Made by a program: the position numbers and the translations under genes | From: Sinohyriopsis cumingii | Taxonomy: Eukaryota; Mollusca; Bivalvia; Unionida; Unionidae | Reading direction: 5' to 3' | Assembly: GCA_028554795.2 (NCBI GenBank) | Contig: CM068825.1 | Location: 91,322,951 to 91,386,950, forward strand | Length of the DNA: 64,000 nt | The notes under the pieces: model-generated | The model's database searches: none | What the model saw: the letters and a program-made list of their open reading frames with translations, nothing else | Told to the model about the DNA's origin: nothing | Shown: piece after piece, positions 8,237-61,502 of the stretch | Numbering within the stretch: the stretch's first letter is position 1 | Layout: each line of letters begins with the position of its first letter

Positions 8237-8635
8237 AGTAGTGAAGTGGGATACCCTAGCGGCAATGGGAATTAGCATTACAGAGACCCCTGGGACACTC
8301 TGGCGACAATGGAAAATTAACATGGAGAAAAATCGTGGGACACTCTGGCGACAAGGGAAATTAACATGGAGAAAAAATTGTGGGACTGTTGAGCGACAAG
8401 GGGAAATTAACATTGGAAATAGATTTTGGGACTGTTGAGCAACAAGGGGAAATTAACATGGAAATAAATCGTGGGACTGTCTAGCGTCAAGGGAAATTGA
8501 ATATGGGATTTTTATTTTTTATTTTTTTTTTTTTAAAAAAATTTTTTAAATAAATTTTTTTTTTAAAAAAGGGGTAGGCAATTGAAAGTCATTCTCTTTT
8601 CGAGAAATATGGGTGGCCCTGAAAAGGGCCTTTGG
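8237..8635 (+). repeat. Left inverted terminal repeat of A
   Basis: It matches the reverse complement of 28229-28618. The outer part holds about six tandem-like units of roughly 40-45 bp (GTGGGACACTCTGGCGACAA, then AATTAACATGG). An A/T homopolymer-rich zone and the histone-type stem-loop of the adjacent gene follow at the inner edge. Confidence 0.95.
8592..8633 (-). terminator. Histone-type mRNA 3' stem-loop
   Basis: On the minus strand CCAAAGGCCC, TTTC and AGGGCC form a 6-bp stem with a 4-nt loop (8615-8630), followed by ACCCA and then TCTCGAAAAGAGA. This matches the metazoan replication-dependent histone 3' signal, including the cleavage-side ACCCA and a purine-rich U7-type downstream element. 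It lies about 20 nt after the stop of the gene ending at 8655. Confidence 0.9.
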
Positions 8636-8654
8636 CTTTCTTCTGCTTCTTCTT

Positions 8655-9002
8655 CTATTTCCTCCATTTCCTCATCCAGCCCCTAATCTTTCCCCAAATT
8701 CCCTTCTTCTTTCTCTTTTCATTTTCCGGTATCCAGTCCGGGTGACCCATGGCTCGGAACTTCTGTTGGATTTTTATCCAGTTATTGTTCAGTCTCTCAT
8801 ATTCTTCTTTTTTCTTTCTATTCTCTTCTTCTTTTCTATCTTTTGCCCACCTGTCTTTAATTTTCTGCACTTCTTCCTCTATTATCTTTTTCATCTTTTC
8901 TTCCGCTTTCTTTAGTTGTTCACTGCCCCTTTTCACGAACTTCCACTCTGACCATTTCTCTAGCTCTTCTAAATAACATCTCACTCCTTTTACCTTGTCC
9001 AT
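8655..9002 (-). CDS. Small coiled-coil accessory protein with Lys/Trp tail
   Basis: A 115-residue, highly charged protein. A central helical region (about 20-75) contains the family pattern seen in the neighbouring genes, with hydrophobic positions followed by IIEEEV and then KDRW. The last 18 residues (KKKGIWGKIRGWMRKWRK) would form a strongly basic, Trp-rich amphipathic helix. A similar tail (KIRSWWRNRRN) ends the equivalent gene of element B at 61058-61441. The gene lies directly downstream of the 76-residue frame at 9006-9236, probably on the same transcript, and ends in a histone-type stem-loop. No known domain is recognised. Binding to nucleic acid or membrane by the tail is inference. 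Confidence 0.7.
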   Translation of the reverse strand: MDKVKGVRCYLEELEKWSEWKFVKRGSEQLKKAEEKMKKIIEEEVQKIKDRWAKDRKEEENRKKKEEYERLNNNWIKIQQKFRAMGHPDWIPENEKRKKKGIWGKIRGWMRKWRK

Positions 9003-9005
9003 AGA

Positions 9006-9236
9006 CTATTTTATAGTCCCCACTCTTACATACTCTGGTTGAATCAATCCTCTCAATCTCTTAACTTCTTCCTCTATCATCTCCTCTATCATCTTCCTCG
9101 CTAATTGTAGTTCATTGACATAGTCAAGACTTTTTCTCAAACTCCATTCTCTTTCTATCCTTTCAATAGTATATTCTCCATCCATCATCCAAAAGTAAAC
9201 ATTTCTTAAGTCATTAAACAACGCCGACACTTCCAT
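9006..9236 (-). CDS. Small helical accessory protein
   Basis: A 76-residue frame of the same accessory family: after a short N-terminus it carries LQLARKMIEEMIEEEVKRL, matching the helical core of the neighbouring genes. It starts about 50 nt downstream of a TATA-like TATAAGAA preceded by the shared CACGTCCGCGC box, so it is the first reading frame of its transcript. The frame at 8655-9002 follows almost at once. The single corresponding gene in B (61058-61441) has the helical core and the basic tail in one protein. Function unknown. Confidence 0.6.
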   Translation of the reverse strand: MEVSALFNDLRNVYFWMMDGEYTIERIEREWSLRKSLDYVNELQLARKMIEEMIEEEVKRLRGLIQPEYVRVGTIK

Positions 9237-9282
9237 CTTGTATCTGTTATTCCGTAGAATGGTTCGAACGACGAACGTGGTG

Positions 9283-9400
9283 GGTTCTTATAGTGAAAGC
9301 GCGGACGTGATGGAAAACATCCCCCTAAAAACATAAAATTGATCTTACCTAGATCATGACCAAACAACGCGCGGACGTGAAGGAAAACATCCCCCTACTT
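9283..9400 (-). promoter_or_regulatory. Accessory-gene promoter with two CACGTCCGCGC boxes
   Basis: Minus-strand order: a box reading ATGTTTTCCTTCACGTCCGCGC (about 9369-9396), a near-palindromic ATCTAGGTAAGAT spacer, a second box (about 9299-9326), then CACTATAAGAACCCAC as TATA box, with the start codon about 50 nt further. The same arrangement precedes the coiled-coil genes of B (60893-61010). Confidence 0.65.
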
Positions 9401-9611
9401 TCTCATTTCATATAATAAAACCCAAACTATACTCTCCACATACGCTAAGAAACAATAAAGAAACCCATAATCTACTATTCGCACAAACATACCTGGGCTC
9501 TTACAAACACTAACACACAAACACATACCCTCACACTAAAAAAAGTCTGTTTATATTCACACTACTCTACCTTCACACATTGGCAAATTGATTGTTATTT
9601 CTTTTCTAGAG
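9401..9611. other. Spacer between accessory genes
   Basis: AT-rich, with a coding-strand TG-rich stretch after the stem-loop (GTGAGGGTATGTGTTTGTG-like). The same stretch follows other stem-loops in A and B. No gene. Confidence 0.6.
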
Positions 9612-9637
9612 TATTGGGTAGCCCTGAAAAGAGCTGT
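9603..9637 (-). terminator. Histone-type mRNA 3' stem-loop
   Basis: Minus strand AGCTCT, TTTC, AGGGCT (9620-9635; one G-U pair) followed by ACCCA and a TAGAAAAGAAA purine block. It lies about 35 nt after the stop at 9670. Confidence 0.85.
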
Positions 9638-9669
9638 TGGTTTTTTTTTTTAACTCCAGATGCACCTAT

Positions 9670-9987
9670 CTAATGATTGCACCTTCCTGGCCTGGCGCCA
9701 CACACGCATCTTCTTCCCCAGTCTCCTTTCACCTTTCTTCTTGGGAGTGCAGAGGCGGGATATGTGGCTTCAGAATCCCAATTTTCTGTCTCTGGGATTC
9801 TGAAATTTCCTCTCTCCTCTTCTTTGTTTCTTCTCTCCTCCTCTTCTTTTCTTCTTCTTCTTTCCTCCTCCTCCTCTTTCATTCTTGCCTCTTCGACAAT
9901 GGCCTCCGCGGCCAGTTCATTTAGTATGCGCCTGGCATATTCCAGGTGCATCTGGAGTTCTAGCAGTTTCACAGTTCTGGTATTCAT
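9670..9987 (-). CDS. Coiled-coil accessory protein with Glu/Arg-rich middle
   Basis: 105 residues. Residues about 8-35 (LLELQMHLEYARRILNELAA) form the helical core, and about 36-60 are almost only Glu, Arg and Lys, a predicted charged single helix. The C-terminal part is different and conserved with B: FRIPETENWDSEATYPASAL and a CVCGARPGRC end with three cysteines. The B counterpart is at 60101-60436. Conservation of the two ends with a length-variable Glu/Arg middle suggests that the ends carry the function. The gene uses the shared CACGTCCGCGC promoter and ends in a histone-type stem-loop. No family recognised. Confidence 0.7.
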   Translation of the reverse strand: MNTRTVKLLELQMHLEYARRILNELAAEAIVEEARMKEEEEERRRRKEEEERRNKEEERGNFRIPETENWDSEATYPASALPRRKVKGDWGRRCVCGARPGRCNH

Positions 9988-10039
9988 TGTTTTGTCAACG
10001 AATGAACAGGGTAGCTAGACTGTCCAGCGAGTTTCAATT

Positions 10040-10145
10040 TACAGTGAAAGCGCGGACGTGAAGGAAAACAACCCCTAAAAAAACATAGCATTGATCTTAC
10101 CTAGATCATGACCAAACAACGCGCGGACCTAAAAGAAACACTCAC
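10040..10145 (-). promoter_or_regulatory. Accessory-gene promoter (CACGTCCGCGC box pair)
   Basis: Minus strand: a diverged outer box (GGTCCGCGCG, 10131-10140), a GATCTAGGTAAGATC near-palindrome, an inner box (10050-10076, CCTTCACGTCCGCGC) and then CACTGTAAATTG in the TATA position before the gene starting at 9987. Confidence 0.6.
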
Positions 10146-10450
10146 TCACTTTTTATACTGCTCATTACTATTCTAAAAAATTTTCATTAATCACTTCAAT
10201 ATACTATTCACATACGCAAAGCAATACAATCAAACCCCAAATCTACTCTCCCCACACCTCAAACAGCCAAAAAAAAAAAACAAAAAAAACAACATCATCT
10301 TAATCTACTATCCACACCAACGTACGTGAGCACTTACAAACACACAATCCTATACACAAACACATACCCTCACATTTTTAAAAAAAGAGTTAGTGTTTAT
10401 TATCACACTACTCTACCTACACACATTGGCAAATTGATGGTTATTTCTTT
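10146..10450. other. AT-rich spacer between accessory genes
   Basis: Contains an A-rich run near 10268-10300 and the TG-rich stretch that follows stem-loops. No gene seen. Confidence 0.6.
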
Positions 10451-10485
10451 TCTAGAGTATTGGGGTAGCCCTGAAAAGGGCTGTT
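10449..10485 (-). terminator. Histone-type mRNA 3' stem-loop
   Basis: Minus strand AGCCCT, TTTC, AGGGCT (10467-10482), then ACCCCA and TCTAGAAAAGAAA. Located about 37 nt after the stop of the poly-Q gene. Confidence 0.85.
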
Positions 10486-10518
10486 TTTTTGTTTTTTTTT
10501 GTTTGCTATGGCAATCTT

Positions 10519-10878
10519 TTAGTTTCTAAGAATGCGATGTCCTCTGAGGATAGACTTTCTGGCAATAGGTCTGCTTCTTCCGAAAGAGAAGAAGAACTCT
10601 TTGGTGTCGATACGACAATCGACAAAGCCTCTGTCAGGTTCAGGTTGTTGCTGCTGCTGTTGTTGTTGTTGCTGTTGCTGCTGTCTCTGAAGTCTGTACT
10701 TCTCTGTCCATTCTTCTTTCTCCCTGTTCACTTCTTCTCTGAAGAGCTCTTCTATCAGGTCTTCAGTGACTTTTAGCATTCTCACATTCTCTATCTCTTC
10801 TGGCTTCGGTATCAGACTGTGTCTGACCCTATGCAAATTCACGTAGGCTTCGTTTAGCTTAGCTAGTTTGGAGCACAT
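10519..10878 (-). CDS. Accessory protein with helical core and poly-Q tract
   Basis: 119 residues from the ATG at 10878. The frame is open further upstream, but that part runs through the promoter box, so I prefer this start (MCSKLAKLNEAYVN), which is shared with B (59248). Residues 1-62 form the family helical core (VTEDLIEELFREEVNREKEEW). About 13 glutamines follow at 66-78, then a C-terminal part with FVDCRIDTKEFFFSF and an Arg/Ser end. The B copy at 59248-59604 has the same layout with a slightly different Q count. It is regulated like its neighbours: shared box upstream, histone-type stem-loop downstream. Function unknown. Confidence 0.75.
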   Translation of the reverse strand: MCSKLAKLNEAYVNLHRVRHSLIPKPEEIENVRMLKVTEDLIEELFREEVNREKEEWTEKYRLQRQQQQQQQQQQQQQPEPDRGFVDCRIDTKEFFFSFGRSRPIARKSILRGHRILRN

Positions 10879-10917
10879 CTTCGTAGGAGGATGAGTCGAC
10901 AATGGATGGTTAGACTG

Positions 10918-10975
10918 GAAACTTCTCCGGTTCTTAAAGTCAAAGCGCGGACGTGAAGGAAAACATCCCCCACAC
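10918..10975 (-). promoter_or_regulatory. Accessory-gene promoter box
   Basis: Minus strand GGGGGATGTTTTCCTTCACG then TCCGCGC (10945-10970), followed by TTTGACTTTAAGAACC in the TATA position. The same sequence occurs upstream of the B copy at 59156-59200. Confidence 0.65.
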
Positions 10976-10979
10976 GGTT

Positions 10980-11215
10980 TTCGAGTCGCAACGTTCAATG
11001 AGTGTTATGAGAGGGATAGTAAGAAATTAAAGAGCATCAATCAAAGATTCTTATAGCCAAACAAACGACAAAGGCATTTTTTTTCAAAACACAACATTTT
11101 TTATTCAAAATCACTTAACACTAACAAACAACTCTAACATTTTTAACAATAATCCAACAATATAACATCAAACATTTTTTTTCAAATGGCAAACATTTTT
11201 TTCTCAATTCACACT
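10980..11215 (-). promoter_or_regulatory. AT-rich 3' region of the protease gene with poly(A) signal
   Basis: Minus-strand AATAAA at 11100-11105, about 110 nt beyond the protease stop codon, and no stem-loop. It contrasts with the histone-type ends of the accessory genes next door. Confidence 0.6.
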
Positions 11216-11800
11216 CTACTTTAAACAGGGCTGACAACGTTGTGAATGAAATTGTGATTTCCACTGTTGGAAGTCATTAGGCCATTGATGGACACTACGT
11301 TTCCTAGCTTGAGACAAAAGATAAGCATAATGGTCACAAAACCATCGATCTACTTTCACATCGTTTCTAGAAGAAGAACGAGGATCAAAATGAGTCACTA
11401 AATGTTCTAAGGAATAACCTAGGCTGCGATGATGCAGAAAATACACACAGTACTGTCCACACACCAAGGAATCTGTGCCTTGTAATTTCATATTATTGAA
11501 TCGGGTGGTCTGAGCATTTCTTCTCATAAAGTCAATAATATCGTCTTCCAAAGGGGGCAATCCATACGAATCGAAATATTCCACACATCCTTCTTGAGGA
11601 AAGTAAACGGCTACCCAGTGGGTTCCTGGGAGATGACTGTCGTCCGTGTTGATCACATAAGCTAGATGGTCTTGAGGTTTGCGATGAGGGAGTTCATCTT
11701 TAGCACAGACGACAGGATTCCAAGAAGCCGTGTACGAACTGTGGTTCAAAAGGTAATAAAGTTCCCAGGTATCCATTGTTTTGTGTGGTTTCTTCTTCAC
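11216..11800 (-). CDS. PRO: Adenain-like cysteine protease (capsid maturation)
   Basis: Polinton protease related to adenovirus protease and Ulp1-type C48 peptidases. The catalytic set is visible: His61 in GTHWVAVYF, Asp77 in EYFDSYG, Gln116 and Cys118 in CGQYCVYFL. It is expected to process capsid or core precursors during virion assembly, by analogy with adenovirus. About 194 residues, normal for the family. An internal ATG at 11776 (MDTWELYYLL) is the more likely start, because the upstream residues overlap the preceding gene. It follows the conserved hypothetical at 11797-12300 with an overlap. The frame looks whole. Confidence 0.9.
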   Translation of the reverse strand: MKKKPHKTMDTWELYYLLNHSSYTASWNPVVCAKDELPHRKPQDHLAYVINTDDSHLPGTHWVAVYFPQEGCVEYFDSYGLPPLEDDIIDFMRRNAQTTRFNNMKLQGTDSLVCGQYCVYFLHHRSLGYSLEHLVTHFDPRSSSRNDVKVDRWFCDHYAYLLSQARKRSVHQWPNDFQQWKSQFHSQRCQPCLK

Positions 11801-12300
11801 AGGTAATAATAAGTCATCAATTCGATCCTGACTTTTTGCTTGAAAATGTTTGACAAATAACCGTTTCTTCGTTTTGTCTCCTCACTTTGATTCAGGAGAG
11901 CTTCGATGCGATCGATCTCTTGAGTGGTTAATGGTGGACAAGAATGTTCACGCAAGTCTTTATACCACTGATGCAACATGTCTTCGTCCGAGATGAGACT
12001 CCAAGCATCGTCCAGGTACTCGTCCAATTTTTCTTCTTGACTCAACATCAAGCATTTATCGTGTTGAATTTGACTGGGATGATCGTTTTGACATCCATAG
12101 CAATTTTTCTTGATCAATTCCGTCATTTTTTCGACCAAGTGTTTGGCAAAACAGCAGACTAAATGGGCTTCTTGTTCTGGCCATCTTGACTTCATCATGA
12201 CAACTTCTTCGTCTTTGTCTTGGGATTCTTCTTCCACAGTTTCCTCACATTCCATCTCCAAAGTTTCTCCACTAGTTAAAGAGGGATAACAGTCTTCCAT
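11797..12300 (-). CDS. Conserved Polinton hypothetical with NCYGC motif
   Basis: 167 residues between capsid and protease genes. An acidic N-terminus is followed by LIKKNCYGCQNDHPSQ and HDKCLML, a Cys/His arrangement I recall from proteins next to capsid genes in other Polintons. The C-terminal half is helical (QEEKLDEYLDDAW). It may bind zinc through Cys and His in the motif, which is inference. The B copy at 57841-58326 is very similar. The gene is packed tightly behind the major capsid gene and overlaps the protease gene, so probably all are expressed together as late genes. Confidence 0.75.
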   Translation of the reverse strand: MEDCYPSLTSGETLEMECEETVEEESQDKDEEVVMMKSRWPEQEAHLVCCFAKHLVEKMTELIKKNCYGCQNDHPSQIQHDKCLMLSQEEKLDEYLDDAWSLISDEDMLHQWYKDLREHSCPPLTTQEIDRIEALLNQSEETKRRNGYLSNIFKQKVRIELMTYYYL

Positions 12301-12305
12301 AGCTT

Positions 12306-13628
12306 CTAATAGTCTAGAATGACTTCTCTCAAACTGTTGATTTCTATGGTATTGTCAAATTCGGCATACAGGATGACGTTCACTGTGTGCCCTGCTTCTA
12401 GTGCACTCGCAAACTGAATTTCCACACGAATCTGGCCAGATTTTATAGGGTGGAAATGTCCCTCGTCGCTGCCTTGGTCTGGAGTGAAATCGAAAGCCCA
12501 CAAAGCATAGCCTCCTGCATAATCCTCGTACGTAATACCGTGACTGGCGTTGGTTCCTAACTGTCCGGTGGCTTCGTACAGGGACAAGTACGATCTCAAG
12601 TAATTCTTCGCGGCACCAAAGCTAGGTTCGAAAGGTCGGGTACACAAGGTCTTGCCATCGCGACTGACTTCAATCTTGGACACATTGTAATGATGAAAGT
12701 TGAAAGGATTTTCGTTGTAGGCTCCGTTGAAGGCTGAATTCTTGACGATACCAACAATCAAACGCTTGGGTAACTGTCCTTGGAACAGATGATCTTCGAT
12801 CATGGATCGCTGTCCAGAAGGAATGGTGAAGGTTTTCACTTCCAATCGTCGTATCGGATACTTAGCGGTCGTTCTGCTCAACGTCTGACTGATGTCGTTT
12901 CCCACTTTAGGTAACACTTCCACACGACGCACGTAGAGTCTGGCTTCTTCGATGATAGTTTTGTAAGTGGCATCAGCAGCAGCCATCAAATGGAAAGGGA
13001 CACTGCTGCGATTCAGTCTCAAGCGGATATCCACTCCGTTCAGCAAATACTTTTCTTGTAACCACATGTCCAAATGCAAGCGATCCATCAGTTCTAAACT
13101 ACGACTTCCAGCAATTTTCTTTCGTCGTTCTACAAATCCCGTTGTATTTTGAGCATCCCTAGCAACTGTAATGCTGTTGAACCTAGTCGCTTGGTCAGGT
13201 TTCCATACCACGCAAGCATCCAGATGAGTGTTCTTGGCTTCTTTACCGTACGTCAAGAGATTTTCCAGGTAGGCTCGGTAAGGGTAAGTATCCATGTTGC
13301 TGCTGACTAGTTTGTTATTCAAGTACAAGTCCACTTCGCTAAACAAGGAATGCATGAAATTATTGATGGGAGCTACTACATCATCATCGGCTAGGTTAGC
13401 GTTGGGTGGTTCGATCACTTTCACTTTCAAGTACAGGTAACTGCTATTCAGATCGATGTAATCTTCGGGCTGTCCTTTGATTTCAAACTCGATGGGAGCG
13501 GAATCGGCCAATGAGGAGACGGGATGAAATTCCACCCACTGGGATTCTTGCATCGTCATCATGGTGGGGGGCATGGCAAACATATCCAGTTCCGACTTGG
13601 AACAAGCACATGACTCTCGGTGCATCAT
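12306..13628 (-). CDS. MCP: Major capsid protein (double jelly-roll)
   Basis: 440 residues. It resembles the Polinton/adintovirus major capsid: an N-terminal segment with SAPIEFEIKGQPEDYIDLNS, then LYLNNKLVSS, DTYPYRAYLENLL and LDMWLQEKYLLNGVDIRLRL. The C-terminal jelly-roll part includes GYALWAFDFTPDQ, HFHPIKSGQIRVEIQF and VILYAEFDNTIEI. This protein should form the hexon-like trimers of an icosahedral particle. The frame looks whole in A. It is flanked by the pX-like gene and the NCYGC gene, the usual late block. Confidence 0.9.
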   Translation of the reverse strand: MMHRESCACSKSELDMFAMPPTMMTMQESQWVEFHPVSSLADSAPIEFEIKGQPEDYIDLNSSYLYLKVKVIEPPNANLADDDVVAPINNFMHSLFSEVDLYLNNKLVSSNMDTYPYRAYLENLLTYGKEAKNTHLDACVVWKPDQATRFNSITVARDAQNTTGFVERRKKIAGSRSLELMDRLHLDMWLQEKYLLNGVDIRLRLNRSSVPFHLMAAADATYKTIIEEARLYVRRVEVLPKVGNDISQTLSRTTAKYPIRRLEVKTFTIPSGQRSMIEDHLFQGQLPKRLIVGIVKNSAFNGAYNENPFNFHHYNVSKIEVSRDGKTLCTRPFEPSFGAAKNYLRSYLSLYEATGQLGTNASHGITYEDYAGGYALWAFDFTPDQGSDEGHFHPIKSGQIRVEIQFASALEAGHTVNVILYAEFDNTIEINSLREVILDY

Positions 13629-13640
13629 TTTTTCTGTGTC

Positions 13641-14057
13641 TCAATAATCGAAAACGTCTAAGTCTCGAACGGTTCTTCTTTTCTTGGCCTTTCTAGCTTG
13701 AAGTCTGGTGAAAGGGTGTTTTCTTCGTCGTCTCTTTCTGCCTTGTCCTTGCTGAATGCCTGACTCGGTAGCGTGCAGGGCATTTATAGGTGTGTCTCGT
13801 CGGCCTAAAATGTCTTTGCCTGTTTGCAGCAAGACATTTTTGCCTGCCCTCATGAAGGCTTCTTTGGGGTTTTGTTTGTCGATGATGACATTTTGGAGAA
13901 ATTCTTTGCCTTGTGTCAGTGCCGCATCTTTCAAGGCGTGCAATCCGCGTGTCACCATCGGTTTCAACACCGGGGCCACTGAACGAAAAGCCGATTTTAA
14001 CATATCTCCTAAACCGTGTCCTCGCTGTCGAGCAACCCCTCGGTACACTGGATACAT
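13641..14057 (-). CDS. pX-like basic protein
   Basis: 138 residues starting MYPVYRGVARQRGHGLGDML, a start typical of the pX-like (adenovirus core/mu-like) Polinton protein. An amphipathic helical part (LKPMVTRGLHALKDAA) follows, and the C-terminus is rich in Arg and Lys (GRKRRRRKHPF). Probably a virion protein that contacts DNA or membrane; this is inferred from the family. It sits between the minor and major capsid genes, as in B (56086-56502). The frame looks whole. Confidence 0.8.
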   Translation of the reverse strand: MYPVYRGVARQRGHGLGDMLKSAFRSVAPVLKPMVTRGLHALKDAALTQGKEFLQNVIIDKQNPKEAFMRAGKNVLLQTGKDILGRRDTPINALHATESGIQQGQGRKRRRRKHPFTRLQARKAKKRRTVRDLDVFDY

Positions 14058-14060
14058 GAC

Positions 14061-14995
14061 TTACGAATCGTGAGAGAACCGTTTTCGAAAATGGAGTTTC
14101 ACTGTGACTTTTCCTTTGGTGAATGGAATATTTTGTCCCAAATCTCCTTTTATAGTAATGTTGACCGTGTCCAAATACAACTTGCTGACAGGCAAATAGT
14201 GAGGATGGACAAATTCGCGGTGGACGTGATAAGTGTTTCCACCTTCCTCGTCAGCGTTCGTGGCAGAATCCACTTTGAAAGGAATGACACGCAGTAACGG
14301 CACGGAGGTGTGTCCCACCACGTTGTACTCCACCACATCGGAATACACGAACATCAAATTCAGTCCTTGATTCAGTTCTACCGGGGCACGAAATAACTTG
14401 CTAAAAGATTCGTTGACGGAAACGATGGGTAATTCCTTTTTCTTGAGCATGGCCATTCTCATGTTCTTGTCTCCGCCCAACATGTCAAACAATTCAGGAC
14501 AAAATAAGAAATACAGGATTTTTCCCCCTCAGGAAAAAATTTCATCAGGAAGCGACGAGTTGTTTTGTGGTATTCCAGGGTGACACTTTTTCTGGCAAGC
14601 TCCAAAGCTCTCAAAAACACGACATTAAACCTGGAGACCATGGTGCTGACCAAATGTTGACCACTAAAATAATAGCCTGGGGGAATGAACAAGTTGTAGG
14701 TCCACGTTTTAGTTTTGTCGTTATAGGATTTATTGTCATATTTGACATTCTTATCCAACTCCTGTTGCACTTGCTCGTCATGAACTTCCACCGTAAAAAA
14801 ATTTTGATTGGGAAGGACATCGAGGACTTGGGTCGGGTGAATGATTTCCACTAAAGCCACTTCCCAATGGGCTTCGTGATCTAAGGGGATGGCTTGAGGT
14901 AATTTGGCTGTGTAACAGCACAACGTGTTGTGGGGAAACACCTCCATGGAACTGTTGCTGGGTAAGGTTAAGTAAAATTGGTTTTGGTGACTCAT
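14061..14995 (-). pseudogene. mCP: Minor capsid protein (penton-like)
   Basis: The N-terminal part shows the conserved Polinton minor-capsid opening: SNSSMEVFPHNTLCCYTAKLP, a WEVALVEI strand and a PPGYYFSGQHL segment. The later part has LNQGLNLMFVYSDVVEYNVVG and HPHYLPVSKLYLD. This is the single jelly-roll vertex protein in the family. The region is broken, with about one break. It is placed next to the pX-like gene as in other Polintons. Confidence 0.85.
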
Positions 14996-15035
14996 AATTC
15001 CAGAGTTCTGTGGCTGTCCGAGGGGTTAGTGGACG

Positions 15036-15422
15036 TCAGAGGCGTGTCTCCGCCCAAAATGGGGTTCTGGTTGTGGTTGTGTTGTTGTTGGAATGGTCAC
15101 TGGCACTGGCACTGGACACAAGGTTCCCGTGGTTCCCGTTCGAGGTGAATTTCAGGGAGGGATTGGGAAGCAGGTAACCGATGCAACTGCTCAATAAAAT
15201 GGTCCACAATTGTTTGTCTCCTTGTTGCAAACTCAAATTGGCAATGGCTGCCCCGATGACACAATACACCACGAAGATTTGGCAGAAAAAGACGATTTGC
15301 GTTTTAGGCACACGTTCTCCGCACCACACCCACAAGGGTTGTTTTTGTAAATCTTGCACAGAAGAACTAGGTGAAGGAGTGGTCGACGTAGCTGCGTCTG
15401 TGTGAAAGGGCATGATGGTCAC
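15036..15422 (-). CDS. Two-helix membrane protein of Polintons
   Basis: 128 residues. Ser/Thr-rich N-terminus, then WVWCGERVPKTQIVFF leading into a hydrophobic helix (about 48-68), an NLSLQQGDKQLW loop and a second hydrophobic stretch (LLSSCIGYLLPNPSL), with a Ser/Asn/Thr-rich tail. VPK-then-helix and SSCxGYLLPNP are patterns I recall from small membrane proteins of animal Polintons. It may sit in a virion or cell membrane; role unknown. The start overlaps the integrase region slightly. The B copy is at 54734-55156. Confidence 0.75.
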   Translation of the reverse strand: MTIMPFHTDAATSTTPSPSSSVQDLQKQPLWVWCGERVPKTQIVFFCQIFVVYCVIGAAIANLSLQQGDKQLWTILLSSCIGYLLPNPSLKFTSNGNHGNLVSSASASDHSNNNTTTTRTPFWAETRL

Positions 15423-54737: not shown

Positions 54738-55156
54738 CCATCATGCCCTTTCACACAGCAGACGCAGCTACGTCGACCACTCCTCCTTCACCTAGTTTTT
54801 CTGTGCAAGATTTACAAAAACAACCCTTGTGGGTGTGGTGTGGAGAACGTGTGCCTAAAACGCAAATCGTCTTTTTCTGCCAAATCTTCGTGGTGTATTG
54901 TGTCATCGGGTCAGCCATCGCCAATTTGAGTTTGCAACAAGGAGACAAACAATTGTGGACCATTTTATTGAGCAGTTGCATCGGTTACCTGCTTCCCAAT
55001 CCCTCCCTGAAATTCTCTTCCAACGGAAACCTTGTGTCCAGTGCCAGTGTCAGTCACCACTCCAACAACAACCACAACCAGAACCCCATTTTGGGCGGAG
55101 ACACGTCTCTGACGTCCACTAACCCCTCGGACAGCCACAGAACTCTGGAATTATGA
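54734..55156 (+). CDS. Two-helix membrane protein (B)
   Basis: 140 residues: WVWCGERVPKTQIVFFCQIF helix, NLSLQQGDKQLW, LLSSCIGYLLPNPSL helix and an Asn/Ser-rich tail. Counterpart of 15036-15422. Overlaps the integrase region by a few bases. Confidence 0.75.
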   Translation: MTIMPFHTADAATSTTPPSPSFSVQDLQKQPLWVWCGERVPKTQIVFFCQIFVVYCVIGSAIANLSLQQGDKQLWTILLSSCIGYLLPNPSLKFSSNGNLVSSASVSHHSNNNHNQNPILGGDTSLTSTNPSDSHRTLEL

Positions 55157-56080
55157 GTCACCAAAACCAATTTTACTTAACCTTACCCAGCAACAGTTCC
55201 ATGGAGGTGTTTCCCAACAACACGTTGTGCTGTTACACGGCTAAATTACCTCAAGCCATCCCGTTAGATCACGAAGCCCATTGGGAAGTGGCTTTAGTAG
55301 AAATGATTCACCCGACCCATGTCCTCAATGTCCTTAACAACCAAAATTTTTTTACGGTGGAAGTTCATGACGAGCAAGTGCAAAAGCACTTGAATAATGT
55401 CAAATATGATCTCAGAAATATAATGAAACAACTCGAACGTGGACCTACCAGTTGTTGATTCCCCCAGGCTATTATTTTAGTGGTCAACATTTGGTCAGCA
55501 CCATAAGCTCCAGGTTTAATGCCGTGTTTGGGAAAGCGTTGGAGCTTGCCCAAAAAAAGGTCACCATGGAGTACCATAAAGCAGCTCGTCGCTTCTTGAT
55601 GAAATTTGAGCCGAGTAAAATCGTGTCCATTTTATTTTGTCCTGAATTGTTTGACATGTTGGGCGGTGACATGGAGCTGAGGAAGAAAGTAGAACAAAAA
55701 CCCGAATTACCAGTCATTTCTGACAACGATTCTTTTGCCAAGTATTTTCGTTCCCCGGTAGAACTGAACCAAGGACTGAATTTGATGTTTGTGTACTCCG
55801 ATGTGGTGGAGTACAACGTGGTAGGACACACCTCCGTGCCGTTACTGCGTTTCATTCCTTTCAAAGTGGATTCTGCCATGAACGCTGACTAGGAAGGTGG
55901 AAACACTTACCACGTCCACCGCGAATTTGTCCATCCTCACTATTTGCCTGTCAGCAAGTCGTATTTGGACACGGTCAACATTACTATAAAAGGAGATTTG
56001 GGACAAAATATTCCATTCACCAAAGGAAAAGTCACGGTGAAACTCCATTTTCGAAAACGGTTTTCTCACGATTCGTGCGT
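55153..56080 (+). pseudogene. mCP: Minor capsid protein, penton-like (B)
   Basis: Shows SNSSMEVFPNNTLCCYTAKL, WEVALVEMIHP, PPGYYFSGQHL, NQGLNLMFVYSDVVEYNVVG and the VTVKLHFRKRFSHDS end, all as in A. Broken, two or three breaks. Confidence 0.85.
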
Positions 56081-56085
56081 AAGTC

Positions 56086-56502
56086 ATGTATCCAGTGTAC
56101 CGAGGGGTTGCTCGACAGCGAGGACACGGTTTAGGAGGTATGTTAAAATCGGCCTTTCGTTCGGTGGCCCCAGTGTTGAAACCGATGGTGACACGCGGAT
56201 TGCACGCCTTGAAAGATGCGGCACTGACGCAAGGCAAAGAATTTCTCCAAAATGTCATCATCGACAAACAAAACCCTAAAGAAGCCTTCATGAGGGCAGG
56301 CAAAAATGTCTTGCTGCAAACGGGTAAAGACATTTTAGGCCGACGAGACACACCTATAAATGCCTTGCACGCTACCGAGTCAGGCATTCAGCAAGGACAA
56401 GGCAGAAAGAGACGACGAAGAAAACACCCTTTCACCAGACTTCAAGCTAGAAAGGTCAAGAAAAGAAGAACCGTTCGAGACTTAGACGTTTTCGATTATT
56501 GA
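56086..56502 (+). CDS. pX-like basic protein (B)
   Basis: 138 residues, MYPVYRGVARQRGHGLGGML start, amphipathic helix, and Arg/Lys-rich end (GRKRRRRKHPFTRLQARKVK). Differs from 13641-14057 at only a few positions. Probably a DNA- or membrane-interacting virion protein. The frame looks whole. Confidence 0.8.
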   Translation: MYPVYRGVARQRGHGLGGMLKSAFRSVAPVLKPMVTRGLHALKDAALTQGKEFLQNVIIDKQNPKEAFMRAGKNVLLQTGKDILGRRDTPINALHATESGIQQGQGRKRRRRKHPFTRLQARKVKKRRTVRDLDVFDY

Positions 56503-56530
56503 GAAAGAACAAAAAAAAAAAACAGAAAAA

Positions 56531-57835
56531 ATGATGCACCGAGAATCTTGCTCTTGTTCCAAGACGGAACTGGATCTGTTTGCCATGCCCCCCACCATGA
56601 TGACCATGCAAGAATCCCAGTGGGTGGAATTTCACCCCGTCTCCTCATTGACCGATTCCGCTCCCATCGAGTTTGAAATCAAAGGACAGCCCGAAGATTA
56701 CATCGATCTGAATAGCAGTTACTTGTACTTGAAAGTCCAAGTTCTAGATAAGGATGATGGTGGAGTAGATGACGCTGAGAATATAGCTCCCGTCAACAAT
56801 TTCATGCATTCCTTGTTCAGCTCACTGGATTTGTACTTGAATAACAAACTAGTCAGCAGCATCATGGATACATACCCTTACCGTGCCTACCTGGAAAATC
56901 TCTTGACGTACGGAATAGATGCCAAGAATACTCATCTCAATGCCTGTGTGCTGTGGGAACCTGACGAAGCGACCAGGTTCGACGCATCGGATTGAACCAA
57001 TTCCGGCTTTGAGCAAAGAGAAAGCAAAATCTTAGATAAGAAGAGTTTAGAACTGATGGATCGTTTGCATTTGGACATGTGGTTGCAAGAGAAATATTTG
57101 CTGAACGGGGTCAATGTTCGCTTGAGACTGAATCGCAGCAGTACCGCTTTCCATTTGTTGTCTGATCCTGCTAAGGCTCCTAAAAGCAAAATCGAAGAGG
57201 CCAAACTCTACGTACGACGCGTGGAAGTGTTACCCAAAGTAGGTAACGAAATCAGTCAAACGTTGAGCAGAACGACCGCCAAGTATCCCATACGACGTGT
57301 GGAAGTGAAAACGTTCACCATTCCCAAGGGACAGCATTCTATGATCGAAGATCATCTGTTTCAAGGACAGTTACCCAAGCGTTTAATCCTTGGTATGGTC
57401 TCGAATTCAGCCTTCAACGGAGCCTTCGCTGAAAATCCTTTCAACTTTCAACACTTCAACGTGAAGAAAATCGAAGTCAGTCGCGATGGCAAGACCTTGT
57501 GTACCCAACCTTTCGAACCTGACTTTAGTGACAAGAAGATGAATTACTTGAGATCGTACTTGTCCCTGTACGAAGCCACCGGTCAGTTAGGAACCAACAC
57601 CAGTCACGGCATTACGTACGACGATTACGCAGGAGGCTATGCTTTGTGGGCTTTCGATTTCACTCCAGACCAAGGCAGCGACGAGGGACATTTCCACCCT
57701 ATAAAATCTGGCCAGATTCGTGTGGAACTTCAGTTTGCAAAAGAACTACCAGCGACAGTGAACGTCATCCTGTATGCCGAATTCGATAATACGATAGAAA
57801 TCAACAGTTTGAGAGAAGTCATTCTAGATTATTAG
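56531..57835 (+). pseudogene. MCP: Major capsid protein, double jelly-roll (B)
   Basis: Same landmarks as the A copy: IEFEIKGQPEDYIDLNS, YLNNKLVSS, YPYRAYLENLLTYG, LDMWLQEKYLLNGVNVRLRL, GYALWAFDFTPDQGSDEG and FDNTIEINSLREV. Broken, about one break; the A copy is open. Surface-exposed loops such as the segment before APVNNFMHS differ more between A and B than the strands do. Confidence 0.88.
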
Positions 57836-57840
57836 AAACC

Positions 57841-58326
57841 ATGGAAGACTGTTATCCCTCTTTACCTAGTGGAGAAACTTTAGACATGGAATGTGAGGAG
57901 ACTGTGAAAGAAGAAGAAGTGATCATGATGAAGTCGAGATGGCCAGAACAAGAAGCCCATTTAGTCTCCTGTTTTGCCAAACACTTGGTGGAAAAAATGA
58001 CGGAATTGATCAAGAAAAATTGCTATGGATGTCAAAACGATCATCCCAGTCAAATTCAACACGATAAATGCCTGATGTTGAGTCAAGAAGAAAAATTGGA
58101 CGAGTATCTGGACGAAGCTTGGAGTCTCATCTCGGACAAAGACGTGTTGCACCATTTTTATAAAGACTTGCGTGAACATTCTTGTCCACCATTAACCACT
58201 CAAGAGATCCATCGTATCGAAGCTCTCCTGAATCAGAGTGAGGAGACGAAACGAAGAAACGGTTATTTATCAGACATTTTCAAGCAAAAAGTCAGGATCG
58301 AATTGACGACTTATTATTATCTGTGA
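57841..58326 (+). CDS. Conserved Polinton hypothetical with NCYGC motif (B)
   Basis: 161 residues; IKKNCYGCQNDHPSQIQHDK with CLML, helical C-terminus, DYYL-like end. Counterpart of 11797-12300 with a shorter acidic N-terminus. Overlaps the protease gene start. Confidence 0.75.
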   Translation: MEDCYPSLPSGETLDMECEETVKEEEVIMMKSRWPEQEAHLVSCFAKHLVEKMTELIKKNCYGCQNDHPSQIQHDKCLMLSQEEKLDEYLDEAWSLISDKDVLHHFYKDLREHSCPPLTTQEIHRIEALLNQSEETKRRNGYLSDIFKQKVRIELTTYYYL

Positions 58327-58910
58327 AGAAGAAAAAAACCACACAAAACATGGATACCTGGGAACTTTATTACCTTTTGAACCACAGTTCGTATACGTCT
58401 TCTTGGAATCCTGTCGTCTGTGCTAAAGATGAACTCCCTCATCGCAAACCTAAAGACCATCTAGCTTACGTGATCAACACGGACGACAGTCATCTCCCAG
58501 GAACCCACTGGGTAGCCGTCTACTTTCCTCAAGAAGGATGTGTGGAATATTTCGATTCGTACGGATTGCCCCCTTTGGAAGACGATATCATTGACTTTAT
58601 GAGAAGAAATGCTCAGACCACCCGATTCAATAATGTGAAATTACAAGGCACAGATTCCTTGGTGAGTGGACATTACTGTGTGTATTTTTTGCATCATCGC
58701 ATCCTAGGTTATTCCTTAGAACATTTAGTGACTCATTTTGATCCTCGTTCTTCTTCTAGAAACGATGTGAAAGTAGATCGATGGTTTTGTGACCATTATG
58801 CTTATCTTTTGTCTCAAGCTAGGAAACGTAGTGTCCATCAAAGGCCTAATGATTTCCAACAGTGGAAATCACAATTTCATTCACAACGTTGTCAGCCCTG
58901 TTTAAAGTAG
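58323..58910 (+). CDS. PRO: Adenain-like cysteine protease (B)
   Basis: 195 residues; the likely start is the internal ATG at 58350 (MDTWELYYLL). GTHWVAVYF (His), EYFDSYG (Asp) and the YCVYFLHH block (Cys) identify the Polinton C48-type protease that processes virion proteins. The frame is open. Confidence 0.88.
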   Translation: MKKKKTTQNMDTWELYYLLNHSSYTSSWNPVVCAKDELPHRKPKDHLAYVINTDDSHLPGTHWVAVYFPQEGCVEYFDSYGLPPLEDDIIDFMRRNAQTTRFNNVKLQGTDSLVSGHYCVYFLHHRILGYSLEHLVTHFDPRSSSRNDVKVDRWFCDHYAYLLSQARKRSVHQRPNDFQQWKSQFHSQRCQPCLK

Positions 58911-59060
58911 ACTGTCAATTGAGAAAAAAATGTTTGTGATTTGAAAAAATTGTTTGATGTTATATTGTTGGATTATTGTTAAAAATGTTAGAGTTGTTGT
59001 TTAGTGTTAAGTGATTTTTGAATAAAAAAATGTTGTGTTTTGAAAAAAATGCCTTTGTCT
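58911..59060 (+). promoter_or_regulatory. 3' region of the late block with poly(A) signal (B)
   Basis: AT-rich; AATAAA at 59021-59026, about 110 nt after the protease stop. No stem-loop here. Confidence 0.6.
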
Positions 59061-59149
59061 TTTGTTTAGCTATAAGAATGTTGGATTGATGCTCTTTCAT
59101 TTCTTACTATCCCTCTCATGACACTCACTGAACGTTGCGGCTCGAAAAC

Positions 59150-59205
59150 CGTGTGGGGGATGTTTTCCTTCACGTCCGCGCTTTGACTTTAAGAACCGGG
59201 GTTGT
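59150..59205 (+). promoter_or_regulatory. Accessory-gene promoter box (B)
   Basis: GGGGGATGTTTTCCTTCACG plus TCCGCGC (59156-59183), then TTTGACTTTAAGAACC, about 60 nt before the ATG at 59248. Confidence 0.65.
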
Positions 59206-59247
59206 TTCCAGTCTAACCATCCATTGTCGACTCATCCTCCTAAGAAG

Positions 59248-59604
59248 ATGTGCTCCAAACTAGCTAAGCTAAACGAAGCCTACGTGAATTTGCATAGGGT
59301 CAGACACAGTCTGATACCGAAGCCAGAAGAAATAGAGAATGTGAGAATGTTAAAAATCACTGAAGACCTGATAGTAGAGCTCTTCAGAGAAGAAATGAAC
59401 AGGGAGAAAGAAGAATGGACAGAGAAGTACAGACTTCAGAGACAGCAGCAACAGCAGCAACAACAACAGCAGCAGCAACCTGAAGCTGACAGAGGCTTTG
59501 TCGATTGTCGTATCGACACCAAAGAGTTCTTCTTCTCTTTCCGAAGAAGCAGACCTATCGCCAGAAAGTCTATCCTCAGAGGACATCGCATTCTTAGAAA
59601 CTAA
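59248..59604 (+). CDS. Accessory protein with helical core and poly-Q tract (B)
   Basis: 118 residues from MCSKLAKLNEAYVN. An ATG 24 nt upstream (59224) is possible but has no counterpart in A. Helical core to about 62 (ITEDLIVELFREEMNREKEE), about a dozen Gln, then GFVDCRIDTKEFFFSF and an Arg/Ser-rich end. Same layout as 10519-10878 of A. Ends 30 nt before a histone-type stem-loop. Confidence 0.75.
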   Translation: MCSKLAKLNEAYVNLHRVRHSLIPKPEEIENVRMLKITEDLIVELFREEMNREKEEWTEKYRLQRQQQQQQQQQQQQPEADRGFVDCRIDTKEFFFSFRRSRPIARKSILRGHRILRN

Positions 59605-59629
59605 AAAAAGATTGCCATAGCAAACAAAA

Positions 59630-59671
59630 AACCAGCCCTTTTCAGGGCTACCCAATACTCTAGAAAAGAAA
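59630..59671 (+). terminator. Histone-type mRNA 3' stem-loop
   Basis: AGCCCT, TTTC, AGGGCT (59634-59649), ACCCA (59650-59654), then TCTAGAAAAGAAAT. Confidence 0.92.
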
Positions 59672-59945
59672 TAACGATAAATTTGCCAATGTGTGTAGGT
59701 ATTAGTGTGAATATAAACACTAACTCTTTTTTAAAAAATGTGAGGGTATGTGTTTGTGTGTTTGTGTTTGTAAGTGCTCAAGTACGTTGGTATGGATAGT
59801 AGATTAAAATGATGTCTTTTTTGGTGTTTGAGGTGTATATTTGGGGTTAGATTGGATTGCTTTGCGTATGTGGATAGTCAATTGAAGTGATTTATAAAAA
59901 ATTTTAAAATAGTGATGGGTAGCATAAAAAAGTGAGTGAGTGTTT
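59672..59945. other. TG-rich spacer after a stem-loop (B)
   Basis: GTGAGGGTATGTGTTTGTGT-like run on the coding strand, then AT-rich sequence. The same kind of spacer follows the stem-loops in A. No gene. Confidence 0.6.
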
Positions 59946-59949
59946 CTTT

Positions 59950-60055
59950 TAGGTCCGCGCGTTGTTGTTTTTTGGTCATGATCTAGGTAAGATCAATTTT
60001 ATGTTTTTTAGGGGGACGTTTTCCTTCACGTCCGCGCTTTCACTATAAATTGAAA
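59950..60055 (+). promoter_or_regulatory. Accessory-gene promoter (box pair, B)
   Basis: Outer box AGGTCCGCGCG (59951-59961), near-palindrome ATCTAGGTAAGAT, inner box CCTTCACGTCCGCGC (60011-60038), then CACTATAAATTG as TATA box; ATG at 60101. Confidence 0.65.
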
Positions 60056-60100
60056 CTCGTTCGGTAGTCTAGCTACCCTTGTTGATTGATCAACACCAGA

Positions 60101-60436
60101 ATGAACACGAGATTGGCGAAACTGTTGGAACTTCATGTGCATCTGGAATATGCCAGGCGCCTGTTGAACGAACTGGCTGCGGAGGCCATTGTGGAAGAAG
60201 GAAGGATGAGAGAGGAGGAGGAAAGAAGAAACAAAGAAGAGGAGGAGGAAAGAAGATACAAAGAAGAGGAGGAGGAGGAAAAGGAGAGAAGAAGAAAAAA
60301 TTTCAGAATCCCAGAAACCGAAAATTGGGATTCTGAAGCCACATATCCTGCCTCTGCTCTCTCCCCCCAAAAGGTAAAAAGTAACTGGGGAACAAGATGT
60401 GTATGTGGCGCCAGGCCTGGAAGGTGCCACCATTAA
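60101..60436 (+). CDS. Coiled-coil accessory protein with Glu/Arg-rich middle (B)
   Basis: 111 residues from the ATG at 60101. Core LLELHVHLEYARRLLNELAA, a Glu/Arg/Lys run that is longer and different from A, then FRIPETENWDSEATYPASAL and CVCGARPGRC near the end. Counterpart of 9670-9987. Ends about 28 nt before a stem-loop. Confidence 0.7.
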   Translation: MNTRLAKLLELHVHLEYARRLLNELAAEAIVEEGRMREEEERRNKEEEEERRYKEEEEEEKERRRKNFRIPETENWDSEATYPASALSPQKVKSNWGTRCVCGARPGRCHH

Positions 60437-60460
60437 CCAGGTGTCCATGAAGTTCCAAAA

Positions 60461-60500
60461 AAACAGCCCTTTTCAGGGCTACCCAATACTCAAGAAAAGA
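60461..60500 (+). terminator. Histone-type mRNA 3' stem-loop
   Basis: AGCCCT, TTTC, AGGGCT (60465-60480), ACCCA (60481-60485), then CTCAAGAAAAGAAAT. Confidence 0.92.
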
Positions 60501-60661
60501 AATAACAATCATTTTGCCAATGTGTAGGTAGAGTAGTGTGAATATAAAGACTAACTCTTTTTTAATAGTGAGAGTGTTTGTAACTGTTCACGTAAGTTTG
60601 TGTGAATGGTAGATTATGGGTTTCTTTATTGTTTCTTAGCGTATGTGGAGAGTATAGTTTT

Positions 60662-60867
60662 GTATAGTGAAGTCTGTACTTCTCCATCCATTCTTCTTTC
60701 TCCTTCTTGAATTCCTCCTTGAAGAGCTCTTCTTTCAGGTCTTCAGTGACTTTTAGCATTCTCACATTTTCTATCTCTTCTGGCTTCGGTATCAGACTGT
60801 GTCTGACCCTATGCAAATTCACGTAGGCTTCGTTTAGCTTAGCTAGTTTGGAGCACATCGTTGTAGG
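60662..60867 (-). pseudogene. Inverted partial copy of the poly-Q gene (B only)
   Basis: Minus strand begins MCSKLAKLNEAYVNLHRVRH and runs through the helical core (VTEDLKEELFKEEFKKEKEE), then leaves homology. It is an inverted duplicate of the first part of 59248-59604. In A the matching spacer (around 9415-9440) lacks it: the sequences on both sides join directly, so the insertion happened in the B lineage. No promoter or stem-loop goes with it. Confidence 0.75.
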
Positions 60868-60889
60868 TTTTATTATATGAAATGAGAAA

Positions 60890-61015
60890 GTAGGGGATGT
60901 TTTCCTTCACGTCCGCGCGTTGTTGTTTTTTGGTCATGATCTAGGTAAGATCAATTTTATGTTTTTTAGGGGGATGTTTTCCTACACGTCCGCGCTTTTC
61001 GTATAAGAACCCACA
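60890..61015 (+). promoter_or_regulatory. Accessory-gene promoter (box pair, B)
   Basis: Box 60893-60920, near-palindrome ATCTAGGTAAGAT, box 60969-60996 (CCTACACGTCCGCGC), then CGTATAAGAACCCAC as TATA box and the ATG at 61058. Confidence 0.7.
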
Positions 61016-61057
61016 GTATTCGTCGTTCAAACCATTCTGCAAAGAACAAAAAAGAAG

Positions 61058-61441
61058 ATGGCTTCGAACCACCTTGACAAAATGGAAAAACTGCAAAACG
61101 TCCTGGACAATTTAGGAATGATGGAGCAAATGTTGGTTAACCTAAACGAGGATCACTATTCTTATAGTCCCCATCGAGTGAAGATGGAGATAAACAACTT
61201 ACGAAAAATGAAGGTAATCATCAGTGATCTGTTGAAAGAAATAAAGGAGGAGAAGGAGGATGAAGAGGAAAGGATAAGGATGAGAGCATGGAACGAAAAA
61301 ATTGAAAAAGAAGAAGAAAATGAGAAGAGGAAGAAAGAAGAGGAGGAGAAGAAAGAAGAGGAGGAGAAAAGAAAGAAAGAAAAGAAGAGAAAAAGTGTAG
61401 GACAGAAAATAAGAAGCTGGTGGAGAAATAGAAGAAATTAG
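61058..61441 (+). CDS. Coiled-coil accessory protein with Lys/Trp tail (B)
   Basis: 127 residues. N-terminal half helical (LQNVLDNLGMMEQMLVNLNE; MKVIISDLLKEIKEEKEDEE), middle Glu/Lys-rich charged helix, and end VGQKIRSWWRNRRN, a cationic Trp-rich amphipathic segment. It corresponds to the pair 9006-9236 and 8655-9002 of A, but here it is one protein. Last gene before the terminal repeat; its stem-loop lies within the repeat. Function unknown. Confidence 0.72.
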   Translation: MASNHLDKMEKLQNVLDNLGMMEQMLVNLNEDHYSYSPHRVKMEINNLRKMKVIISDLLKEIKEEKEDEEERIRMRAWNEKIEKEEENEKRKKEEEEKKEEEEKRKKEKKRKSVGQKIRSWWRNRRN

Positions 61442-61457
61442 AAGAAGAAGAAGAAAA

Positions 61458-61502
61458 CCAAAGGCCCTTTTCAGGGCCAGCCATATTTCTCGAAAAGAGA
61501 AT
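61458..61502 (+). terminator. Histone-type mRNA 3' stem-loop
   Basis: CCAAAGGCCC, TTTC, AGGGCC (61463-61478), AGCCA, then TCTCGAAAAGAGA. Perfect stem; the ACCCA position reads AGCCA as at the left end of B. Confidence 0.88.

Follow-up and report, generated by a model that had tools for sequence, protein, structure and literature searches.

Two virus-like mobile elements of the Polinton type, A and B, lie in a 64,000-nucleotide stretch of the genome of the bivalve mollusc Sinohyriopsis cumingii (GenBank assembly GCA_028554795.2, contig CM068825.1, positions 91,322,951 to 91,386,950 of the forward strand; hereafter the window, in which all positions below are counted), and each carries five accessory genes that are followed by a stem-loop of the kind found at the 3' ends of replication-dependent histone mRNAs. 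Three of these genes (g1, g2 and g3) are at one end of the element and two (g4 and g5) at the other. From the sequence, we consider it likely (with a probability of roughly 0.77) that the pre-mRNAs of these five genes receive their 3' ends from the host machinery that serves histone genes, namely SLBP and the U7 small nuclear ribonucleoprotein (snRNP). A broader proposition, which we favor with less assurance, is that the element has commandeered the host pathway for histone mRNAs, such that five non-histone genes give rise to stem-loop-ended, non-polyadenylated mRNAs through SLBP and U7 and the accessory proteins are thereby tied to host DNA replication. The two elements are:

8237..28618, most genes on the minus strand: Polinton A; termini AGTAGTGAAG...CTTCACTACT; flanked by TACGGA
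41242..61797, most genes on the plus strand: Polinton B, an inverted relative of A; termini AGTAGTGAAG/CTTCACTACT; flanked by TTTAGT

Histone-type stem-loops follow ten accessory gene copies

A sequence-only reading of this DNA had listed ten stem-loops by coordinate and strand, and a search of the window with the pattern RGCCCTTTTCAGGGCY, allowing up to two mismatches, returned precisely these ten, where 0.08 matches were expected and where no more than one was ever seen in any of 100 dinucleotide shuffles. The pattern is exact at eight sites and has one change each at 9620 and 27143. The same reading had proposed a scan with the Rfam model of the histone stem-loop (RF00032, Histone3), and that scan agrees with the histone-type 3' end it had claimed: three of the ten sites scored above the gathering threshold (41.8, 40.8 and 40.4 bits), a permissive scan matched all ten at E values of 6e-9 to 0.0061, and there was no eleventh match in the window at E up to 10. 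The loops had been placed 20–40 nucleotides (nt) behind stop codons and always on the coding strand; all ten begin 21–36 nt past the stop of an ATG-initiated open reading frame (ORF) of 76–193 amino acids on the same strand, and only 1.2% of strand positions stand this far past a stop codon that closes an ORF of at least 75 amino acids. The ten stem-loops are:

8615..8630, minus strand: g1 stem-loop of A, in the inverted repeat; RF00032 40.8 bits; 24 nt after the stop of ORF 8655-9002
9620..9635, minus strand: g2 stem-loop of A, with one U-G pair; RF00032 25.7 bits, E 0.0061; 34 nt after the stop of ORF 9670-9987
10467..10482, minus strand: g3 stem-loop of A; RF00032 29.3 bits, E 2.7e-4; 36 nt after the stop of ORF 10519-10878
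27143..27158, minus strand: g4 stem-loop of A, second pair broken; RF00032 26.8 bits, E 0.0022; 25 nt after the stop of ORF 27184-27759
28234..28249, plus strand: g5 stem-loop of A, in the inverted repeat; RF00032 40.4 bits; 24 nt after the stop of ORF 27979-28209
41515..41530, minus strand: g5 stem-loop of B, in the inverted repeat; RF00032 33.9 bits, E 5.1e-6; 24 nt after the stop of ORF 41555-41788
42615..42630, plus strand: g4 stem-loop of B; RF00032 41.8 bits; 25 nt after the stop of ORF 42008-42589
59634..59649, plus strand: g3 stem-loop of B; RF00032 29.9 bits, E 1.7e-4; 29 nt after the stop of ORF 59248-59604
60465..60480, plus strand: g2 stem-loop of B; RF00032 31.3 bits, E 4.7e-5; 28 nt after the stop of ORF 60101-60436
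61463..61478, plus strand: g1 stem-loop of B, in the inverted repeat; RF00032 33.9 bits, E 5.1e-6; 21 nt after the stop of ORF 61058-61441

The first stem pair is G-C at six sites and A-U at four, and 59 of the 60 pair cells are standard, the sole broken pair being that in A at 27143. The signal is missing from the polymerase, integrase and ATPase genes of the element. Folding energies run from -8.3 to -11.8 kcal/mol for the hairpins of the stem-loop genes and from -2.6 to -10.9 kcal/mol for the strongest hairpins behind 17 other B genes; because these ranges overlap, and because the hairpins of the latter differ among themselves in sequence and position, it is the sequence of the hairpin and not its strength that marks the stem-loop genes.

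The sequence downstream of the loops resembles a histone cleavage site and U7 target

Directly after the loop stands ACCCA at seven of the ten sites, ACCCC at one and AGCCA at two, and a GAAAAGA block starts 14 nt past the stem-loop at nine sites and 15 nt past it at the tenth, much as the sequence-only reading had described for most sites. Within this block the purine core AAAGA begins at the 16th nt past the loop (nine sites) or the 17th (one site) and extends to AAAGAG in six cases and to AAAGAA in four. Upstream of the four loops that lie in inverted repeats is CCAAA, which matches the Rfam consensus. Beyond the loop all ten cassettes (the loop and what follows it) can be aligned with one another, including a block like TCAATTTGCC that lies 3' of the purine core.

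In all ten cassettes this third conserved block, like TCAATTTGCC(AAT), lies just past the core (for example, at 42660-42673), and we know of no histone counterpart for it. The g4 cassette of B illustrates the stretch that precedes it:

42631..42655, plus strand: cleavage-site and U7-target-like stretch, ACCCA and then GAAAAGAG; a like stretch stands behind the other nine loops

In mouse H2a, according to excerpts of PMC7026596, the purine core is AAAGAG and is paired by CUCUUU of U7 snRNA, and the U7 snRNP cuts 4–5 nt past the loop; pairing of the Polinton cores was judged against mouse U7 as described there. Taken together, the loop, the ACCCA-type context and the U7-type purine core make up the complete arrangement seen at the 3' ends of histone pre-mRNAs.

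Three of the five gene pairs have a conserved cassette

To ask how the cassettes have fared since A and B diverged, we compared, for each gene, the loop and the next 35 nt with the last 200 nt of the gene plus the region 35–250 nt past the loop, omitting gap columns and the spacer between stop and loop. The g1 cassette has 1 difference in 51 positions, the flanks 174 in 392 (p 4e-11); the corresponding figures are 3/51 and 85/374 for g2 (p 0.002) and 2/51 and 110/404 for g5 (p 4e-5). The outer flank of g1 and that of g5 are the same inverted repeat, whose divergence, 37% in the first alignment, was inflated by internal repeats (BLAST gives 78–82% identity). Because the outer-flank divergence was overstated in this way, the islands were retested against the coding flank alone, with differences of 100/192 for g1 (p 7e-13), 51/200 for g2 (p 0.00095) and 34/197 for g5 (p 0.0088). 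In these three pairs the cassette therefore differs by 2–6% and the adjoining coding ends by 17–52%, and the g1 stem-loop has no change in its 16 positions despite only 39% amino acid identity between the two proteins. The spacers themselves differ at 3/24 (g1), 9/28 (g2), 1/26 (g3), 0/25 (g4) and 1/24 (g5) positions, and g1 and g5 remain significant when the spacer is added to the cassette. The g3 and g4 pairs have hardly diverged between A and B. By this comparison, selection on the cassette is visible in three of the five pairs.

The ten sites all exist, as had been claimed, but they are not ten independent cases: A and B being related copies, the number of gene positions is five, and four sites (8615, 28234, 41515 and 61463) lie within terminal inverted repeats. 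These repeats extend inward past the outer loops and stop only 9 nt upstream of them, which makes the cassettes of g1 and g5 duplicates of one another. The ten cassettes probably share one ancestor, because all align together beyond the loop, and a single capture followed by spread inside the element would be the simplest history.

The cassette in a related element and in databases

Homologues of g4 were found at E <= 0.01 for 20 of 418 candidates (59–98% identity, on short public contigs). In one of these, P0142 (65% identical), the reading frame continues beyond the usual end, and its tail contains SGPPTSLEKR, all ten residues of which equal the in-frame translation of the A DNA behind the g4 stop, a stretch that in A spans the loop and the purine core; the B counterpart translates as SGPPTFLEKR. 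None of 20,000 shuffles of the tail, which had been spotted by eye ahead of the test, scored as high against the B translation. Between the usual stop and the loop P0142 shows no evident likeness. Read from this translated tail, the cassette appears to recur in a related element, where the loop would begin about 28 nt past the stop-equivalent codon, as in the window, if the first codon of the tail aligns with the stop; the loop may be imperfect, one loop-region codon being different (I for F). The other 19 homologues are uninformative on the cassette, since 18 of them stop close to or exactly at the usual C-terminus and P0151 is divergent there. The evidence comes from one window, one element family and one further related copy.

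Five contigs in prokaryotic metagenome-assembled genomes encode polymerases 28–33% identical to that of the element, and we take these contigs to be Polinton-type DNA binned with prokaryotes. IMG/VR yielded no relative of the polymerase with a single sequence or a 10-row alignment as query, no relative of g4 with a 22-row alignment as query and no match to the stem-loop pattern with ACCCA.

Looser searches of IMG/VR returned a few candidates, which were taken as chance, the gene content of the contigs being left out of that judgment. A looser stem-loop pattern had seven matches, none of them an RF00032 match at gathering; one (L002) lies 30 nt past the stop of a 126-codon frame. The sequence GGYYCTTTTHAGRRCCACC had two matches (RF00032 21–22 bits, E 0.04–0.07), neither with a stop 20–40 nt upstream and one of them inside a 787-codon frame. 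Half the stem-loop together with the purine core had four matches (two identical), all within open frames and without RF00032.

The stem-loop genes encode no recognizable histone

The five genes are described here by their B copies; the ratios of nonsynonymous to synonymous substitution (dN/dS, A versus B) of 0.12–0.21 for g2–g5 are rough values for short genes, given without a significance test, and the two copies of g1 are too diverged for an estimate.

61058..61441, plus strand: g1, 127 amino acids, charged; 39% identity to the A counterpart over 96 aligned residues
60101..60436, plus strand: g2, 111 amino acids; dN/dS 0.17 versus the A copy
59248..59604, plus strand: g3, 118 amino acids; dN/dS 0.12 versus the A copy; two-helix model, mean predicted local distance difference test (pLDDT) score 71.8
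42008..42589, plus strand: g4, 193 amino acids; predicted coiled coil, then a basic stretch; dN/dS 0.21 versus the A copy, few changes
41555..41788, minus strand: g5, 77 amino acids, net charge +12, a small basic protein; dN/dS 0.15 versus the A copy
41789..42007, no strand: g4/g5 divergent promoter; TATA boxes facing both ways, two CCAAT and one TGACGTCA, motifs by consensus only

The sequence-only reading held that no gene here encodes a histone, and Pfam scans of all ten proteins gave no significant histone match: there was no histone family among the matches of eight proteins at E <= 10 (for the 61058-61441 protein, among 25 of its 30 matches) and none for the 9670-9987 and 10519-10878 proteins at E <= 0.1. 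The nearest match was to TAF4, a histone-fold subunit of TFIID, in the 61058-61441 protein (E 0.07, 13.3 bits against a cut-off of 33). Nor is a histone fold evident in the AlphaFold2 models of g3 and g4, which contain helices only, are of low to middling confidence and were not submitted to a fold search; the g4 model is one long helix between poorly predicted ends (mean pLDDT 68.8). The proteins of g1, g2 and g3 are 14–29% identical to B g3, own A copy excluded, and these genes may be divergent tandem copies with basic ends.

The g4/g5 promoter spacer is 219 bp and has the same layout in A, at 27760-27978. Divergent gene pairs with TATA/CCAAT promoters are typical of histone genes, and because g4 and g5 share a promoter of this kind, the cassette may go back to a pair of histone genes that the element captured and whose coding sequences later gave way to others. 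Upstream of g1–g3 are TATA-like boxes (by eye) and the motif CACGTCCGCGC, whose eight copies in the window all lie in these two regions.

Two further observations concern the upstream regions. A block, CATGATCTAGGTAAGATCAA, stands upstream of g1 and g2; within it are an inverted repeat of 5 bp and AGGTAAG, which resembles a splice donor (9339-9358 and 10091-10110 on the minus strand, 59977-59996 and 60935-60954 on the plus strand). In A a second short ORF, 9006-9236, precedes g1 and ends 3 nt before the g1 start (8655-9236, minus strand).

A proposed route to non-polyadenylated mRNA, and alternatives to it

By the route we propose, host SLBP would bind the loop behind g1–g5, the host U7 snRNP would pair with the AAAGA core, and the pre-mRNA would be cut after the ACCCA-type stretch. 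The mRNAs would then leave the nucleus without poly(A), as histone mRNAs do, and synthesis of the proteins would fall chiefly in S phase, or draw on message stored in eggs, when the element can be copied; S-phase timing and egg storage are suggested because both are known for histone mRNA. Both the RNA processing (non-polyadenylated mRNA, U7 cleavage) and the S-phase expression are what we infer from the DNA.

Several observations weigh against this reading. The stem of one A site (27143) has a broken pair; at 9620 and 27143, both in A, the most favorable local structure of a 36-nt segment is not the histone loop; and two B sites have AGCCA after the loop. The double change at the first stem pair occurs only in g2 and g3, perhaps through a single event, and 467 of 500 shuffles likewise yield one double-change pair. 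The g3 and g4 pairs have no island (2/50 versus 23/378, p 0.42, and 4/51 versus 16/396, p 0.94, respectively), g2 becomes non-significant when the spacer is added (12/79 versus 85/374, p 0.088), and gene conversion between repeats could contribute to an island. In both A and B, AATAAA lies 17 nt past the g4 stop, ahead of the loop, and AATAAA or ATTAAA occurs within 250 nt for five of the ten stem-loop genes versus 2 of 17 other B genes, so use of poly(A) signals by these genes is possible. Lastly, the sequence-only reading had proposed looking for the signal in other animal Polintons, and the five other Polinton-type contigs (one of 13.3 kb, the rest under 8 kb), unlike A and B, contained no RF00032 match, so a wider spread did not find support; given these lengths, the result shows only that the signal is not universal.

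How far do these points favor other explanations? The cassette might be a passenger, the end of a host histone gene captured once, duplicated within the element and now unused, with the mRNAs polyadenylated downstream. The probable common ancestry of the ten cassettes, the AATAAA near some of them and the g3 and g4 cassettes, conserved no more than their flanks, all fit such a history. A passenger, however, would be expected to diverge as fast as the sequence around it, which the g1, g2 and g5 cassettes do not, and one stem pair stays paired through a double change; we therefore regard it as improbable. Less probable again is a DNA-level element, an inverted-repeat hairpin with a role in replication, packaging or integration that spread by copying toward the interior. 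Four of the ten sites do lie in inverted repeats, but six are internal and all ten are on the coding strand 21–36 nt past stops. Both the sequence of the loop and the U7-type block belong to an RNA signal, whereas a DNA hairpin needs neither ACCCA nor a purine core. Transcripts of mimiviruses and virophages end at a stable hairpin of any sequence, and Polintons are relatives of virophages, so that the loops could be generic 3' ends at which any stable hairpin ends the transcript. The likeness is that a hairpin lies right behind the stop of viral genes; the Polinton loops differ in having the fixed histone sequence, in being restricted to a subset of genes and in being followed by a U7-type block. 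Given that the stem-loop genes are distinguished by sequence while hairpin strengths overlap with those of other B genes, and that Pfam gave no significant RNA polymerase match for the scanned ORFs, we find this explanation the hardest to credit.

The alternative with the most in its favor, although still one that we think somewhat unlikely, overlaps with histone-type processing: the loop would serve during S phase, with a poly(A) signal taking its place at other times. AATAAA is found near g1 and g3 in A and adjoins the loop in both g4 copies, but five of the ten stem-loop genes have neither AATAAA nor ATTAAA within 250 nt. Precedents exist in H2AC18, a human H2A gene with AATAAA nearby for which excerpts of PMC9756948 describe dual 3' processing, and in H2A.X, for which the excerpted text of PMC7807067 reports both stem-loop and poly(A) processing.

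Relation to known histone mRNA ends

Set beside replication-dependent histone mRNA ends, the Polinton cassettes share the six-pair stem, the TTTC loop, CCAAA before the loop at four sites and ACCCA after it at seven, together with a purine core at fixed spacing, a short distance from the stop and short ORFs. Unlike histone genes, the Polinton genes encode no recognizable histone and belong to a mobile virus-like element, and their loops depart from the histone end in the A-U first pair at four sites and in the third block like TCAATTTGCC. In Caenorhabditis elegans, as excerpts of PMC1924863 describe, histone mRNAs likewise have a GGCCCT...AGGGCC hairpin with AATAAA nearby; they end 3–6 nt past the hairpin, the AATAAA being rarely if at all used, and have an AATCC block where A and B have the U7-type purine core. 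Among bivalves, histone mRNAs of Lucina pectinata contain the stem-loop, with purine-rich elements nearby in four (PMC6210712, in part).

Replication-dependent histone mRNAs are described in passages of PMC6303110 and PMC1924863 as the only known animal mRNAs with a stem-loop in place of poly(A). Our searches of the open literature, with "Maverick" and most subscription papers outside their range, found no report of a histone stem-loop or SLBP acting on Polinton, transposable-element or viral genes. The publications found on SLBP and viral mRNA, judged by title and the start of the abstract, reported no such viral genes, and those on the histone stem-loop, viruses and non-polyadenylated mRNA yielded only an artificial expression system. 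This is a known RNA signal on kinds of genes for which we found no report of its use. If our reading holds, Polinton genes with the full signal would break the histone-only rule and provide the pathway with a client other than histones, one could test directly when Polinton genes are expressed, and such mRNAs would probably be under-counted in poly(A)-selected RNA-seq.

The two Polintons and their surroundings

A and B are complete Polintons in opposite orientation and are related copies of one another, with long common stretches 90–95% identical (BLAST). The Polinton context that the sequence-only reading had recognized is upheld by the polymerase, integrase, ATPase, inverted repeats and 6-bp target duplications. 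Each element is flanked by a perfect 6-bp target duplication (TACGGA at 8231-8236 and 28619-28624 for A; TTTAGT at 41236-41241 and 61798-61803 for B), and A has a 404-nt inverted repeat of 95.5% identity. B encodes a type B DNA polymerase (Pfam DNA_pol_B_2, 105.7 bits, above cut-off), a retrovirus-type integrase (rve, 55.7 bits, above cut-off) and an A32-type packaging ATPase (Pox_A32, 33 bits against a cut-off of 22.8); the polymerase reading frame is split in A as well as in B, and its best named relatives, at 42–43% identity, are from the oyster Saccostrea echinata. These relatives, taken with those of the reverse transcriptase described below, point to a bivalve and probably to a freshwater mussel as the host. 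Matches to an Ulp1/adenain-like protease are weak and below cut-off (Peptidase_C5, 15.2 bits, in A; Peptidase_C48, 15.6 bits, in B). The scanned ORFs had no Pfam match to a major or minor capsid protein, a structure-based capsid search not having been made. The polymerase, integrase, ATPase, inverted repeats and 6-bp target duplication are all shared with Polinton/Maverick elements and adintoviruses, and, given the weak match, a protease of the Ulp1/adenain kind may be as well. B also carries two BIR proteins and one CCHC protein above Pfam cut-offs.

The two BIR (inhibitor of apoptosis) genes of B adjoin each other at 47572-48721 and are followed by repeats of 100–200 nt; a related region of A is at about 20526-22190. 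The CCHC zinc-knuckle gene (42882-43376, minus strand, in B; 26411-26854, plus strand, in A) is on the strand opposite to the polymerase, and the second half of its A copy is strongly different, as if by a frame change (by eye). Outside the two elements, positions 257-723 are 73% identical to the B integrase region at 53754-54222 and are probably a remnant of another Polinton. Between A and B, at 34425-35279, lies the ORF of a reverse transcriptase of the long interspersed nuclear element (LINE) type, which over about two thirds of its length is 77–80% identical to proteins of the freshwater mussel Sinanodonta woodiana, the best named match among 120 listed of 7986.

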